From Syntrophobacterales bacterium (lineage in GTDB: Bacteria; Desulfobacterota; Syntrophorhabdia; Syntrophorhabdales; Syntrophorhabdaceae), in assembly GCA_031274925.1 (NCBI GenBank), contig JAISPL010000007.1:1-37689 (forward strand): a stretch of DNA of 37,689 nucleotides, read 5' to 3'. Position 1 is the first letter of the stretch; each line of letters opens with the position of its first letter. A program made the translations under genes and the position numbers. The notes below the pieces were generated by a model that saw nothing but the letters and a program-made list of their open reading frames with translations, was not told the origin of the DNA and ran no database searches. Of this stretch, positions 5,041-31,883 are shown one piece after another.

Positions 5041-5344
5041 ATAGAAATTGTTTCACCATTTATTCACGTGATCGTCTGCTATAAATACACCGTCAGGAAG
5101 ACTTTGTCTACGGTAATCTGCCAACATGTATGTTTCGGTATTTTAGAAGGATGTTTTTCTGTATTTCCCAATAATATCTAAGGGTGTACGGATTGTAATG
5201 TATTGCATGGTATCTTGTTGGCACGGCTTAAACAGGTTTTTCCAATTCCGTGAAAGTATAGAAAAACAGGTAGCGGAAAATACGATATTCGGTGGAGGCT
5301 TTAGACTCCCAACCCCTATAAACAATCCCCTCATTGGTTTCTGC
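5041..5344. other. AT-rich intergenic stretch
   Basis: No coding signal was found. Apart from the upstream part of the leftward promoter at its left end, I see nothing assignable before repeat copy A starts. Confidence 0.4.
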
Positions 5345-5725
5345 GATAGGGATGAGAGCATTGGAGCAGCACCAGATTCCATCACCAGTGATATGGTAAG
5401 TTAATTATACTCACCAAAGGACTTCCTTCCCTGAAACAGGTATCAGGAAGATAATCCTAGATGACCTCTCCCTCTTTTTATGTCTTACCATATGAAAGCA
5501 TTGAATTGAGTCTCGCCAAAGATGCGTATTCTATGAAAAGTCTCATCATAAAAAGAACATATCTTCTTGCTTGTCCATAACGTCATAGAACTTACACATT
5601 ATGAGGATGAGACTTTTCATCCTTCAGAGAAGTGTATGACATGTCGCATAGACGAAACGGAAGAGAGGATCTTCCGATGTAAGAGAGATGCAGGATAGAT
5701 GATCAGCAGGGGAGGAACAGTGGGA
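5345..5725 (+). repeat. Dispersed structured intergenic repeat, copy A (upstream of uvrA)
   Basis: This shares blocks in the same order with copies B and C. GATAGGGATGAGAGC (5345-5359) and CCAGATTCCATCACCAG (5372-5388) are identical in B. GACCTCTCC, TTTTTATGTCTT and GTCTCGCC are shared with B, and ATGACATG...ATAGACGAAAC (5636-5658) is shared with B and C. It is strongly self-complementary: ATGAAAAGTCTCATC (5533-5547) is a perfect 15-bp inverted repeat of 5606-5620, and GGAAGAT (5446-5452) pairs with ATCTTCC (5669-5675). No open frame is conserved among the copies. It may be a non-coding RNA gene or a MITE-like element. Confidence 0.75.
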
Positions 5726-5740
5726 AAAGAGGCGAGTCGG

Positions 5741-5769
5741 TTGCCCCGATCCCTCAAAGATGGTATATT
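5741..5769 (+). promoter_or_regulatory. Promoter of uvrA, leaderless geometry
   Basis: TTGCCC (5741-5746), a 17-base spacer, TATATT (5764-5769). Transcription would be expected near 5776, which is the G of the GTG start codon. No Shine-Dalgarno sequence precedes the gene, which fits a leaderless mRNA. Confidence 0.6.
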
Positions 5770-5775
5770 ATCGCA

Positions 5776-8577
5776 GTGAACAGAATTTTCGTTAAAGGTG
5801 CACGTCAGCATAACCTCAAGAACATTGATGTCGAGCTTCCCAGGAACAAAATGGTGGTGATCACGGGACCGAGCGGGTCAGGCAAATCTACCCTTGCCTT
5901 CGATACGATCTACGCGGAGGGGCAAAGACGTTACGTCGAATCTCTCTCGTCTTATGCGAGACAGTTTCTAGAGCTTATGGACAAGCCAGATATGGACTAC
6001 ATTGAAGGGTTGTCCCCAGCCATCAGCATTGAACAGAAAACTATCAGCAAAAACCCTCGCAGTACGGTGGGGACGGTCACTGAAATTTACGATTACCTGA
6101 GACTCCTATTTGCCAGGATCGGGCATGTCTTCTGTTATGGCTGCGGGAAGGAGATAAAAAGCCAACACACTCCGCAGATCGTAGACCACATCTTATCTAT
6201 GCCACAAGGGACCATGCTTGCCATTCTGGCCCCCATCGTAAGAGGACGAAAAGGAGAGTACCGCAAGGAAATTGATGAACTGAGGAAGCAGGGTTTTTCA
6301 CGGATCAAATTGAACGGTGCCATAGTCGATCTATCAGAAAACATCACACTTGACAAGTACAAGAAGCACGACATTGACGTCATCATAGACAGGATCACTC
6401 TGAGGGAAGGAGTTGAACGAAGGCTTTTCGAAGCAGTGGAGCTTGCCTTGCAGAAGGCGGAAGGAATCATAAAAGTCGAAACTCCGAAAAATGTTATGGT
6501 CTTCAGCGAGAAATTTTCCTGCCCCGATTGTGGCATAAGCTATCCTGAGATTGCTCCCCGCATGTTCTCCTTCAATAATCCTTACGGAGCATGCCCCACC
6601 TGTCTCGGCCTCGGGGTCAAGGAGTTTTTCGATCCTGCGCTCATTATCCCGAACCATGACCTCTCCCTGAGGGAGGGGGCTGTGCTCCCTTGGGGCGAGA
6701 AGAGCTCTGTTCACTTTATGCCCTTTCTTGAAGCCCTCGTCAACCGCTATAGCATAGACATCGAGGAGCCTTACAGGGATCTCCCGGAAGAAGTCCGCAA
6801 CGTAATCCTTTACGGCACCAAAGAAGATCTTGAATTTTTCACCAACAAAGGAGGAAAAAGACACCTCGTCAGAAGACGCTTTGAGGGGGTAATAAAAGAG
6901 CTTCAAAGAGATTGGGAGAACGCCGACTTTTTCGAGAAAGCCCGGCTTGAACGGTTTATCAATCTTATACCGTGTCCATCATGCAACGGGGCGAGGTTGA
7001 AAAAGGAGATGCTTTGGGTAAAGATTAATGATCTCAACATTGATGAAATTACCCGTATGACCATCGCCCTTGGTCTCGACTTCTTCTCGGCCCTGAAGCT
7101 TACCGAAAAAGAGATGGAAATCGCAAAATCGATCCTCAAAGAGATTATCTCCCGCCTCAGATTCCTCATGGATGTCGGGCTCGACTATATTACCATAAAC
7201 CGAAATTCTGGGACGCTCTCTTCAGGAGAGTCACAAAGAATTCGCCTCGCCACCCAGATCGGCTCTGGCCTGACAGGCGTTCTCTATATTCTTGACGAGC
7301 CAAGCATAGGACTCCATCAGAGAGATAACGAAAGGCTCCTTACCACCCTTTTTAGGCTGAGAGACCTTGATAACACGGTCATAGTCGTAGAACACGATCA
7401 TGATGCCATCGTCTCTTCGGACTACGTTATAGACCTGGGGCCCGGCGCAGGGGAAAACGGAGGTCACCTCGTCTTTCAGGGTACGCCAAATGACTTGGCG
7501 GCCCATGAGACTTCCGTCACCGGGATGTTTATCTCAAAAAGACGGGAAATCAAGCAACCCGACAAAAGAAGGACTCCAAAGGGAGTCATCAGGATTAAGG
7601 GAGCTCACTCCCACAACCTCAAACATATCAACGTCACCATTCCCATTGGGATCTTCACGTGCGTCACGGGGGTTTCCGGCTCGGGAAAGAGCACTTTGAT
7701 TGTCGATACCCTCTACCCTCTCCTTAAACAAAAAATTTACAAGTCGAAAGAACGGGCAGGAGAAACGGAAGGCATTGAGGGGTTCGAGGCAATAGACAGG
7801 GTTATCGATATAGATCAGTCACCCATTGGAAGGACTCCAAGGTCGAATCCAGCCACCTATACGGGCATCTTTACCCCCATAAGAGAACTTTTCACGAAAC
7901 TCCCGGAGTCACGGATGAGAGGGTACAAAGAGGGGAGGTTCTCCTTCAACGTGAAAGGAGGCCGGTGCGAGACCTGTGCAGGCGAAGGCTACGTTACCAT
8001 CGAAATGCAGTTCCTTCCCGATGTGTATATCGTCTGCGACACCTGCAAAGGGAAGAGATACAACAGGGATACCTTGGAGGTTAAATACAAAGGAAAGAGT
8101 ATTGCCGATGTCCTGGAGATGACCGTGACTCAGGCCTTGGATTTTTTCTCTTCTATTCCCACGATAAAGGCAAAACTGAAAATCCTGAATGAGGTAGGAC
8201 TTGGCTACATCAAACTTGGCCAGGCGGCGACCACCCTCTCAGGGGGAGAAGCTCAGAGGATCAAGCTCTCTCGTGAGCTATCAAAACGGGATACGGGCGC
8301 GACCCTATATATCCTCGACGAGCCCACCACAGGGCTTCACTTCTCCGACATAGAGAAGCTCCTACACGTACTTATGGAGCTTGTCGACAGAGGCAATACC
8401 GTCGTAGTGATTGAGCATAACCTTGATGTGATAAAATGCGCTGACCATGTTATTGATCTCGGCCCGGAGGGGGGAGACAAAGGCGGGACCGTCATCGTCG
8501 AGGGGACTCCCGAAAAGGCCATGGCTACACCCGACAGTTACACAGGGATATTCCTCAAGAGATACTTGGACAGTTAA
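5776..8577 (+). CDS. uvrA: UvrA, excinuclease ABC subunit A
   Basis: The damage-recognition ATPase of nucleotide excision repair: it dimerises, loads UvrB on lesions and leaves. It has 933 aa, normal length. The tandem ABC modules are visible. First Walker A GPSGSGKST (31-39), with signature LSSGESQRIRL (about 480) and Walker B ILDEPSIGLHQRD. Second Walker A GVSGSGKST (about 632), with signature LSGGEAQRIKL (about 820) and ILDEPTTGLHFSD. Zinc-binding pairs are CPDC (about 249) with CPTC (about 274), and CETC (about 731) with CDTC (about 754). The start is GTG 5776 (MNRIFVKGARQHNLKNI aligns with the family). It is followed after 8 bases by kdsB and preceded by repeat copy A. Confidence 0.98.
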   Translation: MNRIFVKGARQHNLKNIDVELPRNKMVVITGPSGSGKSTLAFDTIYAEGQRRYVESLSSYARQFLELMDKPDMDYIEGLSPAISIEQKTISKNPRSTVGTVTEIYDYLRLLFARIGHVFCYGCGKEIKSQHTPQIVDHILSMPQGTMLAILAPIVRGRKGEYRKEIDELRKQGFSRIKLNGAIVDLSENITLDKYKKHDIDVIIDRITLREGVERRLFEAVELALQKAEGIIKVETPKNVMVFSEKFSCPDCGISYPEIAPRMFSFNNPYGACPTCLGLGVKEFFDPALIIPNHDLSLREGAVLPWGEKSSVHFMPFLEALVNRYSIDIEEPYRDLPEEVRNVILYGTKEDLEFFTNKGGKRHLVRRRFEGVIKELQRDWENADFFEKARLERFINLIPCPSCNGARLKKEMLWVKINDLNIDEITRMTIALGLDFFSALKLTEKEMEIAKSILKEIISRLRFLMDVGLDYITINRNSGTLSSGESQRIRLATQIGSGLTGVLYILDEPSIGLHQRDNERLLTTLFRLRDLDNTVIVVEHDHDAIVSSDYVIDLGPGAGENGGHLVFQGTPNDLAAHETSVTGMFISKRREIKQPDKRRTPKGVIRIKGAHSHNLKHINVTIPIGIFTCVTGVSGSGKSTLIVDTLYPLLKQKIYKSKERAGETEGIEGFEAIDRVIDIDQSPIGRTPRSNPATYTGIFTPIRELFTKLPESRMRGYKEGRFSFNVKGGRCETCAGEGYVTIEMQFLPDVYIVCDTCKGKRYNRDTLEVKYKGKSIADVLEMTVTQALDFFSSIPTIKAKLKILNEVGLGYIKLGQAATTLSGGEAQRIKLSRELSKRDTGATLYILDEPTTGLHFSDIEKLLHVLMELVDRGNTVVVIEHNLDVIKCADHVIDLGPEGGDKGGTVIVEGTPEKAMATPDSYTGIFLKRYLDS

Positions 8578-20903: not shown

Positions 20904-20942
20904 ACTGATGCCCCAACAATCAATCCCCCGTTGGCCCCTCCG

Positions 20943-21330
20943 GATAGGGATGAGAGCGCTTGGCGGTAGCGCCAGATTCCATCACCAGCGATGGTAAGTA
21001 AATTATACCAATCACTTATAAGGACCTCTTTCTATGGGACAGGTATCGGGAAGAGAATCTTGGACGACCTCTCCTGCTCTTTTTTATGTCTTGCCAATTC
21101 TTAAGCGCGTAAAGAGCATTGGGTCTCGCCAAGGATGGGTATTCGTAGTATGAGAAACCTCTCCATAAATGGTACATGCCCATAATGTCATGGAGTTTGC
21201 GCCTTTAGAGGATAAGACCCTATCCCTTAAAAAGAGGCATATGACATGCCGTAATAGACGAAACGGGAGAGAAAGGTCCGCCGACGTATAAAGGATACCG
21301 GTATAGAAGGCCAGGGGAGAGGAGGGGGTG
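20943..21330 (+). repeat. Dispersed structured intergenic repeat, copy B (upstream of tatD)
   Basis: The blocks shared with copy A appear in the same order: GATAGGGATGAGAGC (20943-20957), CCAGATTCCATCACCAG (20972-20988), GACCTCTCC (21065-21073), TTTTTTATGTCTTGCC, and GGGTCTCGCC (21121-21130). GCCGTAATAGACGAAAC (21248-21264) is identical in copy C. Local hairpins include GCGCT/AGCGC (from 20956) and CCATC/GATGG (from 20979). Long pairings include GGTATC (21042-21047) with GATACC (21294-21299), and GGGTCT with AGACCC (near 21215). The element ends in a purine-rich G run, 21311-21336. Confidence 0.75.
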
Positions 21331-21344
21331 GGGGGGATACTGCA

Positions 21345-21373
21345 TTGAATAGAAATCTGTAATATGTTATAAA
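21345..21373 (+). promoter_or_regulatory. Promoter of tatD, leaderless geometry
   Basis: TTGAAT (21345-21350), 17 bases, TATAAA (21368-21373). Seven bases past the -10 is the A of the tatD ATG (21380). No Shine-Dalgarno sequence is present. Confidence 0.6.
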
Positions 21374-21379
21374 TCAGCG

Positions 21380-22168
21380 ATGTATATTGATTCGCATTGC
21401 CATCTGGAGATTGAAAAGTTTGACAAAGACAGAGATCAGGTAATTTCAAAAAGCCTGGCAGAGGGCCTCATCTATATACTTACAGTCGGCACTGAAGAAC
21501 AGTACTTCGGGAAAGTAGTTGAGCTGGTGGATATGTATCCCGAAATATACGGGGCTGTCGGAATTCATCCTCACAATGCCAAAGATTATACAGATCAAAT
21601 GGCCGAAAAACTGCGCGTCACCCTAACGCATCCGAAAATTGTTGCCTTAGGTGAGATCGGTCTTGATTTCTTCAAAAATCACTCTCCAAGGTCCGCGCAA
21701 TTGAAAACCTTTGAAGGGCAAATGGAACTGGCATGCAGGGAAAAAATTCCTGTAATCATACATTCGCGAAGCGCTCAGCAAGAGACACTCACGGTTTTGA
21801 AAAAATTTGTGGAAGGTTTGCCTGCAGGCGGAGTTATCCACTGTTTTTCATACGATCTCCATGCGGCAAAGGAATTCTTGGACTTGGGGTTCTTCCTTTC
21901 TATTCCGGGAACGATAACATATACAAAAAATACTTCCCTGATTGATGCGGCGAAATATATCCCCTTGGATAGAATACTCATAGAGACGGATGCACCATTT
22001 CTTGCTCCGGTACCTCACAGAGGCAAGAGAAATCTCCCGCACTTAGTGAAAATCATCGCTGAATCAGTAGCGCAAATTAAAAACATGACTGTGGAGGATT
22101 TATCATTCAATGTCCGGCGCAATTTTGAAACACTTTTTCTACCTGGCTCAAAGGAGGCGCCACATTGA
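21380..22168 (+). CDS. tatD: TatD family metal-dependent hydrolase (DNase)
   Basis: A TIM-barrel amidohydrolase-superfamily nuclease; relatives are 3'-5' exonucleases involved in repair and quality control. It has 262 aa. The metal ligands are intact: H6 and H8 (DSHCHLE), E92 (GEIGLDF), H128 (IIHSR), H154 (IHCFSY) and D204 (ETDAPFL). The end 'VAQIKNMTVEDLSFNVRRNFETLF' is typical. The gene overlaps the next one by 4 bases (TTGA). Confidence 0.93.
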   Translation: MYIDSHCHLEIEKFDKDRDQVISKSLAEGLIYILTVGTEEQYFGKVVELVDMYPEIYGAVGIHPHNAKDYTDQMAEKLRVTLTHPKIVALGEIGLDFFKNHSPRSAQLKTFEGQMELACREKIPVIIHSRSAQQETLTVLKKFVEGLPAGGVIHCFSYDLHAAKEFLDLGFFLSIPGTITYTKNTSLIDAAKYIPLDRILIETDAPFLAPVPHRGKRNLPHLVKIIAESVAQIKNMTVEDLSFNVRRNFETLFLPGSKEAPH

Positions 22169-31087: not shown

Positions 31088-31151
31088 ATAATGCAGATGA
31101 CATTAAGATGCACATTCAGTCTCTTGTGCCTGATTTTCCGCGAATACTTGA

Positions 31152-31365
31152 ATGACCTCCCCTCTCCTTATCAGATCTTATCTAGATTCAAAGTGTGTAA
31201 AGAGTATGGGGTCCCGCCGGAGATAGAAGCGGCAAAGAGACTTCATCCTCTATGGGAGGCTCATGACACGCCGTAATAGACGAAACAGGAGAGGACCTCC
31301 CTATCCTGATATATAAGGTAATACTGGGATAGGCACAGTTAGAGAGAGGGGGGAGAGAAGGTAAA
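31152..31365 (+). repeat. Dispersed structured intergenic repeat, copy C (short form)
   Basis: This is the core of the element in A and B without the upstream block and with the left half of the variable arm deleted. Shared with B: GTGTAAAGAG.ATGGGGTC.CGCC (31194-31218; B has CGCGTAAAGAG...GGGTCTCGCC) and GCCGTAATAGACGAAAC (31270-31286, identical). A run comparable to A is GACTTCATCCT...TCATGAC (31240-31267). Its outer arms still pair: CTCTCC (31160-31165) with GGAGAG (31288-31293), and TATCAG with CTGATA (about 31311). It ends in a G/A-rich run like copy B. Confidence 0.65.
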
Positions 31366-31396
31366 AAAAGAGAGAGGAGACCTTGGTCCGGAAAAA

Positions 31397-31424
31397 TTGA
31401 CAGAGACCGGAGAAAAAGTATAGA
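31397..31424 (+). promoter_or_regulatory. Promoter of the zinc-finger protein gene
   Basis: TTGACA (31397-31402, perfect), a 16-base spacer, TATAGA (31419-31424). The start would be near 31431, downstream of repeat copy C, so the repeat would not be in this transcript. Confidence 0.55.
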
Positions 31425-31440
31425 TTACATTAATATACAA

Positions 31441-31476
31441 ATGTCCGGTACGGGCAATCTACCAAAGAAGATATGA
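31441..31476 (+). CDS. Possible 11-codon leader ORF
   Basis: ATG at 31441 opens a frame of 11 codons whose TGA stop (31474-31476) overlaps the ATG of the next gene at 31473 as ATGA. The main gene has only a weak AAGAAG ribosome-binding site, so coupling through this leader could matter. It is near the predicted transcript start. Confidence 0.3.
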   Translation: MSGTGNLPKKI

Positions 31477-31883
31477 GCATACTAGCTGACATAAAAAGAC
31501 TGGGCTTCAAACTCGAAGATGCCGACAAGGACGAGATCGACAAGATATTGCAGCGGATAGGAAAGCAGATAAAAGATAAAGACGTGCGAAACGCTATAAT
31601 TGAAGGTGAAATTGGCGATTTCCTGAACGCTTGGCGGCCAGACATCATGGACGAGCTCGTCAAAGACCGCCAGCGACAGGTCAATGAGTGGGTAAAGACG
31701 ACCCAGAGAAAGTACGACGAAAAGGGCAACAGGGTCTGTGAAGAGCAATTTTGTCCCTCTACCAACGGGGTCACCCAATGCATATACTGCGGCAAGTTTA
31801 TCTGCAAGGAACACAATTACAAAAAAGATTCCATTGTCTGCTACGACTGCTTTGCAGAGAAATACGGAAAAGAAAATGCCTGA
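31473..31883 (+). CDS. Small protein with C-terminal B-box/RING-like zinc finger
   Basis: A 136-aa protein of no family I can name. The first 85 residues are helical and charged (IKRLGFKLEDADKDEIDKIL, RNAIIEGEIGDFLNAWRPD). Then come eight metal-ligand candidates: C89-x4-C94, C103-x2-C106, C111-x2-H114, C123-x2-C126. The spacing, with CxxC...CxxH...CxxC, suits two zinc ions held in a cross-brace, as in B-box, RING or AN1-type fingers. This suggests a protein- or nucleic-acid-binding adaptor. It is separated from the next genes by about 0.7 kb. Confidence 0.6.
   Translation: MSILADIKRLGFKLEDADKDEIDKILQRIGKQIKDKDVRNAIIEGEIGDFLNAWRPDIMDELVKDRQRQVNEWVKTTQRKYDEKGNRVCEEQFCPSTNGVTQCIYCGKFICKEHNYKKDSIVCYDCFAEKYGKENA

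Follow-up and report, generated by a model that had tools for sequence, protein, structure and literature searches.

Most bacterial insertion sequences (IS) choose their targets with only weak specificity. The retroelements Ty1 and Ty3 of budding yeast and Tf1 of fission yeast, by comparison, integrate in a preferred window upstream of promoters and spare the host gene. In Tn5/IS50 and IS10, a fold in the mRNA hides the transposase ribosome-binding site, and we know of no promoter targeting by these elements of the sort described below. Bacterial MITEs are short, occur in many copies without a transposase gene and carry the ends of a full-length IS. Closest to the elements described here is the IS1380 family, including ISEcp1, IS1247 and ISPme1, whose members have a single gene for an NF033539-type DDE transposase, terminal repeats starting with CC and a 4–5-bp target duplication, 5 bp in the case of IS1247 (PMC3281130). 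ISEcp1 and ISPme1 are noted for the outward promoters that they bring with them (PMC9330008) and not for seeking those of the host, and in one survey the spaces between co-directional genes held more than their share of IS1380 elements (PMC9208149).

Our analysis concerns a 37,689-nucleotide stretch of DNA from a Syntrophobacterales bacterium (the window), in which three related elements lie on the forward strand. Element A (positions 5308–5727) comprises a 5' leader, the start of a transposase gene (tnp), a middle of unknown origin and a 3' end; element B (20911–21331) is the most complete copy; and element C (31146–31383) is without the 5' half, all outer limits being approximate. A first-pass annotation had described them as foldable intergenic elements, possibly a new structured RNA or a MITE. 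Its placement of the three copies was right and its shared blocks are present, although the limits that it gave were slightly narrow for each. Block CCAGATTCCATCACCAG is common to A and B, GCCGTAATAGACGAAAC to B and C, and GTCTCGCC, found in A and B, has the counterpart GTCCCGCC in C. A fourth copy, on the reverse strand at 124–189, is partial (5' end only; E = 1.4e-4) and directed at the contig start.

The annotation had proposed a search of the rest of the genome (2.06 Mb in 57 contigs), and this revealed a sizeable family. With element B as query, the 24 matching stretches include A (E = 4e-38) and the C block (E = 2e-7), and the best of them (E = 4e-97) is a partial copy that is 83% identical; element A as query gave 16 stretches. 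Profile searches place the family at about 20 distinct copies, plus the partial one at 189–124. These E-values and the roughly 20 further places put the likeness of A, B and C far beyond chance. The outer arms that had been noticed because they pair with one another are terminal inverted repeats, one C-rich and one G-rich, which in A–C are present but decayed. Inspection of A, B and C revealed no clear target duplication, so their exact ends are taken from homology. At one further copy (L005, about 1800–2000), the downstream frame reads as a different transposase-like ORF, possibly belonging to an unrelated IS.

The origin of the family emerges from a single relative. Among 40 related genomes, one of the same genus (G001) has a DNA match to the element, and there the 5' part continues directly into a 510-aa open frame that matches the IS1380 transposase model NF033539 at E = 9e-65 (218.9 bits against a curated cut-off of 180) and PF13701 (95.7 against a cut-off of 34.7). 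This parent IS is complete (AAGC / CCTCAATCTCCCATC ... GGTGGTGGATTGTGG / AAGC), with AAGC adjoining it at both ends; the terminal repeats of the clade to which it belongs are CCCAAATCCACC / GGTGGATTTGGG. Copies in the home genome match both ends of the parent; the match at the 5' side takes in roughly the first 40 bp of coding sequence, and in some copies it is also found for the last codons and the 3' untranslated end. Against the parent, copies L006 and L014 score E = 4e-16 and 1e-13, and element A scores 3e-12 for its 5' part and 1.6e-7 for its 3' part. Because both ends match an intact IS, from the leader to the first codons and again beyond the stop, A–C read as MITE-like internal deletions. 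Protein and family-model searches detected no IS1380 transposase in the home genome, although the same family model does find matches among control genomes.

With multiple copies, no transposase gene and ends homologous to a full-length IS, the MITE half of the annotation's reading stands; it had recognised no insertion sequence, however, whereas an IS1380-family parent is present in a genome of the same genus. Two features set these copies apart from other bacterial MITEs: the parent is gone from the genome, and the copies lie upstream of promoters in one orientation. The clade is also divergent within IS1380, its best plasmid relatives being only 25–27% identical. Very probably, then, A–C are old MITE-like elements, non-autonomous and derived by deletion from a divergent IS1380-family clade that inserts at a fixed site upstream of promoters. 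A phage or plasmid origin was considered and rejected, as only two relatives occur in viral contigs and five weak ones in plasmids. The middle of the copies, about 230 bp, has no match to any part of the known IS; it corresponds to the GTCTCGCC region, at 5480–5620 and 21080–21200 of the window, and in a second subfamily (L006, L011 and L014) it is different and longer.

The other half of the annotation's reading was a new structured non-coding or cis-regulatory RNA family, maintained by selection on the RNA. The conserved blocks do keep their order and folding is mildly favourable, with z-scores of −1.9, −1.7 and −1.5 against shuffles for the three copies. The covariation proposed as a check is nevertheless not above background among the copies, the RNAalifold covariation term contributing next to nothing (−0.14 of −8.15 kcal/mol and −0.49 of −23.4 kcal/mol). 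The annotation had recognised no Rfam-type motif, and the copies have no Rfam match at gathering or E-value thresholds. Moreover, the nearest promoter does not transcribe the copies, since they sit upstream of its −35. The annotation had regarded extension into a transposase gene or IS ends as telling against an RNA, and this is what the parent IS reveals; that the ends and part of the interior are common to a transposase-bearing IS largely refutes the RNA reading, which we consider very unlikely.

A genuine covarying RNA does exist in the parental leader, which speaks for an RNA reading. This leader of about 70 nt folds into stem P1 (CCTCGTTG / CAACGAGG), whose 3' arm includes the GAGG of the ribosome-binding site, hairpin P2 and stem P3. 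Across an alignment of 42 sequences (A3; L042 at 1085–1155 and 41 further loci), 87% of cells pair. In 67 cells both sides have changed, whereas shuffles give 24 and none of 500 reaches that number, and all six P2 pairs have compensatory changes. The transposase leader has no Rfam match. It is a real, conserved RNA with covariation, in which the ribosome-binding site is paired, and most likely it restrains translation of the transposase, much as the mRNA folds of Tn5/IS50 and IS10 cover theirs. In A and B, the 5' block descends from this leader in decayed form, and the fixed blocks and pairing arms that had suggested an RNA are terminal repeats plus leader-RNA remains. The structural hunch thus holds for the parent IS, which has a covarying leader, and fails for the copies, among which covariation is negligible.

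What the first-pass annotation overlooked is the fixed placement of the elements just upstream of host promoters. On the forward strand past element A lies a sigma70-like promoter at 5741–5769 (−35 TTGCCC at 5741–5746, a 17-bp spacer and −10 TATATT at 5764–5769), followed by the gene that it drives, uvrA, at 5776–8577, which encodes UvrA domains. Element B is similarly followed by a sigma70-like promoter at 21345–21373 (−35 TTGAAT at 21345–21350, a 17-bp spacer and −10 TATAAA at 21368–21373) and a tatD-family DNase gene at 21380–22168 (PF01026, E = 6e-79). Beside element C is one at 31397–31426 (TTGACA at 31397–31402, an 18-bp spacer and TAGATT), with a 136-aa ORF downstream at 31473–31883 that has no Pfam match, all again on the forward strand. 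Across the home genome, a promoter scoring at least 9 lies within 100 bp past 14 of the 17 right ends, a score that 5.9% of random host segments attain, and nearly all of these promoters drive a co-directional ORF; L009, L021 and L019 have no adjacent promoter. Genes past the elements include uvrA, tatD, rplU, the trigger-factor gene tig, ruvX and a deacetylase gene, the names other than uvrA and tatD being read from translated N-termini and not from a family search.

A systematic view came from 80 loci of the clade gathered from public genomes, with ends set by the inverted-repeat consensus and an E. coli-type matrix used to predict promoters. When up to one mismatch is allowed, TTGACA is found in 37 right flanks ten times at offset 13 and five times at offset 14, against zero to two times at any other; TATAAT, with up to two mismatches allowed, has its peak at 36–37, one 17-bp spacer beyond the hexamer. 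The best sigma70-like promoter starts 12–15 bp past the right end in 24 of the 37 insertions, where 3.0 are expected (the mean of 300 shuffles, with a maximum of 9); the remaining 13 flanks fall outside this strict rule, and among left flanks the figure is 5 of 34. Loci that had played no part in forming the idea follow the same rule in five of eight cases. A logo of flanks has its strongest signal at the −35 hexamer; since promoter score had served to choose those flanks, evidence for promoters is taken from the unselected counts alone. Two copies of canonical Rhodococcus IS1380 elements have no clear −35 at 13–14 bp, a number too small to decide anything. Outside the Dehalococcoidia, the ends rest on the repeat consensus and not on duplications, except for AAGC in G001.

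One Dehalococcoidia genome supplies the exact ends. It contains at least 20 near-identical IS copies (L098–L117 without L110, plus L137; CATOSD01 contigs), of which 17 of 20 have an exact 5-bp target duplication and 18 of 20 have a promoter at 12–15 bp beside one end. The −35 starts 13–14 bp from the element end, which is 8–9 bp outside the duplication, and the promoter lies beside the right end in 7 copies and the left in 11, always directed outward. Eleven of the 20 targets form one homologous group with a common promoter sequence (...CATCCGTGCTA..); when homologous targets are counted once, ten groups remain, and the hexamer, judged by eye, is present in nine. Elements of this clade thus insert with 4–5-bp duplications and end 13–14 bp upstream of a predicted host −35 hexamer, in a promoter that is directed away from the element and is faced by the right end in most lineages and by either end in this Dehalococcoidia genome. 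This placement, together with the structured leader RNA, distinguishes the clade from IS1380 elements such as ISEcp1, IS1247 and ISPme1.

These exact ends bear on whether the element itself could be the source of the promoter, its right end supplying a −35 or a whole outward promoter. Outward promoters do occur in the IS1380 family, as in ISEcp1 and ISPme1 (PMC9330008), and the −35 usually lies beside an element end. Yet the Dehalococcoidia promoters stand outside exact 5-bp duplications and beside either end, and the 13 bp between element end and −35 have an information content close to zero, with almost no conserved sequence. The rplU promoter (TTGACTTTT ... TAATATAAGTAG) is the same in seven relatives without the element and therefore belongs to the host; likewise, the region around the uvrA −10 is common to the sequence upstream of uvrA in G001, where the element is absent. 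Target duplications and empty sites led us to reject a promoter inside the element, and a mobile promoter seems extremely improbable. Alternatively, insertion might be random, with selection keeping only copies upstream of promoters. Insertions into genes are costly and many IS do pile up between genes, but such a process would be expected to leave a broad range of distances, whereas the observed peak at 13–14 bp is 1–2 bp wide and recurs in several phyla; of the explanations weighed here, we give this one the least credence.

What the transposase reads is a finer question. A variant of the targeting explanation holds that it recognises a TTGACA-like hexamer as plain DNA, the link to promoters being a by-product. 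The −35 hexamer is indeed the strongest signal, and a good −10 is missing at some sites. Among hexamer sites, however, 19 of 28 have a −10 at a spacer of 16–18 bp, against a background of 23% (p = 5e-7), which indicates that the target is a promoter and not a bare hexamer, and most TTGACA words in a genome lie outside promoters. We regard the plain-hexamer variant as possible but on the doubtful side and, although the data do not decide, we favour recognition of promoter-bound polymerase or of promoter DNA geometry.

A mechanism along these lines can be sketched. The transposase is modelled as a Tn5-like DDE enzyme across residues 33 to 480 (VIA Z 19 to 3ecp, 330 aligned residues, rmsd 4.4 Å); no added polymerase-binding domain is apparent in the model, though one could be present without a match. 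DNA near −47 is touched by the alpha-CTD of RNA polymerase, next to sigma region 4. With the −35 in its usual position, the duplication would be centred near −47, adjoining the expected contacts of sigma region 4 and the alpha-CTD, and the transposase may be steered there by the RNA polymerase holoenzyme or by promoter DNA under it. Insertion near −47 would spare both promoter and gene. We tentatively propose, as a reading that falls somewhat short of probable, that the transposase uses promoter-bound sigma70 RNA polymerase as its docking site and inserts the element at about −47, with the coupled leader RNA silencing transposase translation. Deletion derivatives would have been mobilised in trans by the now-lost parent, and some 20 of them would remain as relics in front of genes that include uvrA, tatD, rplU, tig and ruvX.

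The MITE aspect of these elements is already known as a kind. For promoter targeting by a bacterial IS we found no report in the openly accessible literature, and we make no claim to priority; the excess of IS1380 elements between co-directional genes (PMC9208149) fits the rule. With Ty1, Ty3 and Tf1 the clade shares a preferred window upstream of promoters and the sparing of the gene. Those, however, are retroelements guided by eukaryotic transcription factors, whereas this is a bacterial DDE IS at sigma70 promoters, for which we infer tethering. Its likeness to Tn5/IS50 lies in the predicted transposase fold.

The rule described here has several implications. First, it accounts for the relics that stand before housekeeping genes in this genome, and these could rewire regulation through the upstream sequence that they have replaced. 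Second, a clade whose insertions track promoters to the base pair across several phyla would offer a clean system in which to study the coupling of transposition to transcription initiation. Third, because each insertion marks a promoter, the copies would amount to natural promoter maps of uncultured bacteria, and the clade might serve to place DNA in front of active promoters. Finally, if docking on the polymerase is true, these elements would be a bacterial counterpart of the promoter-tethered retrotransposons of yeast.
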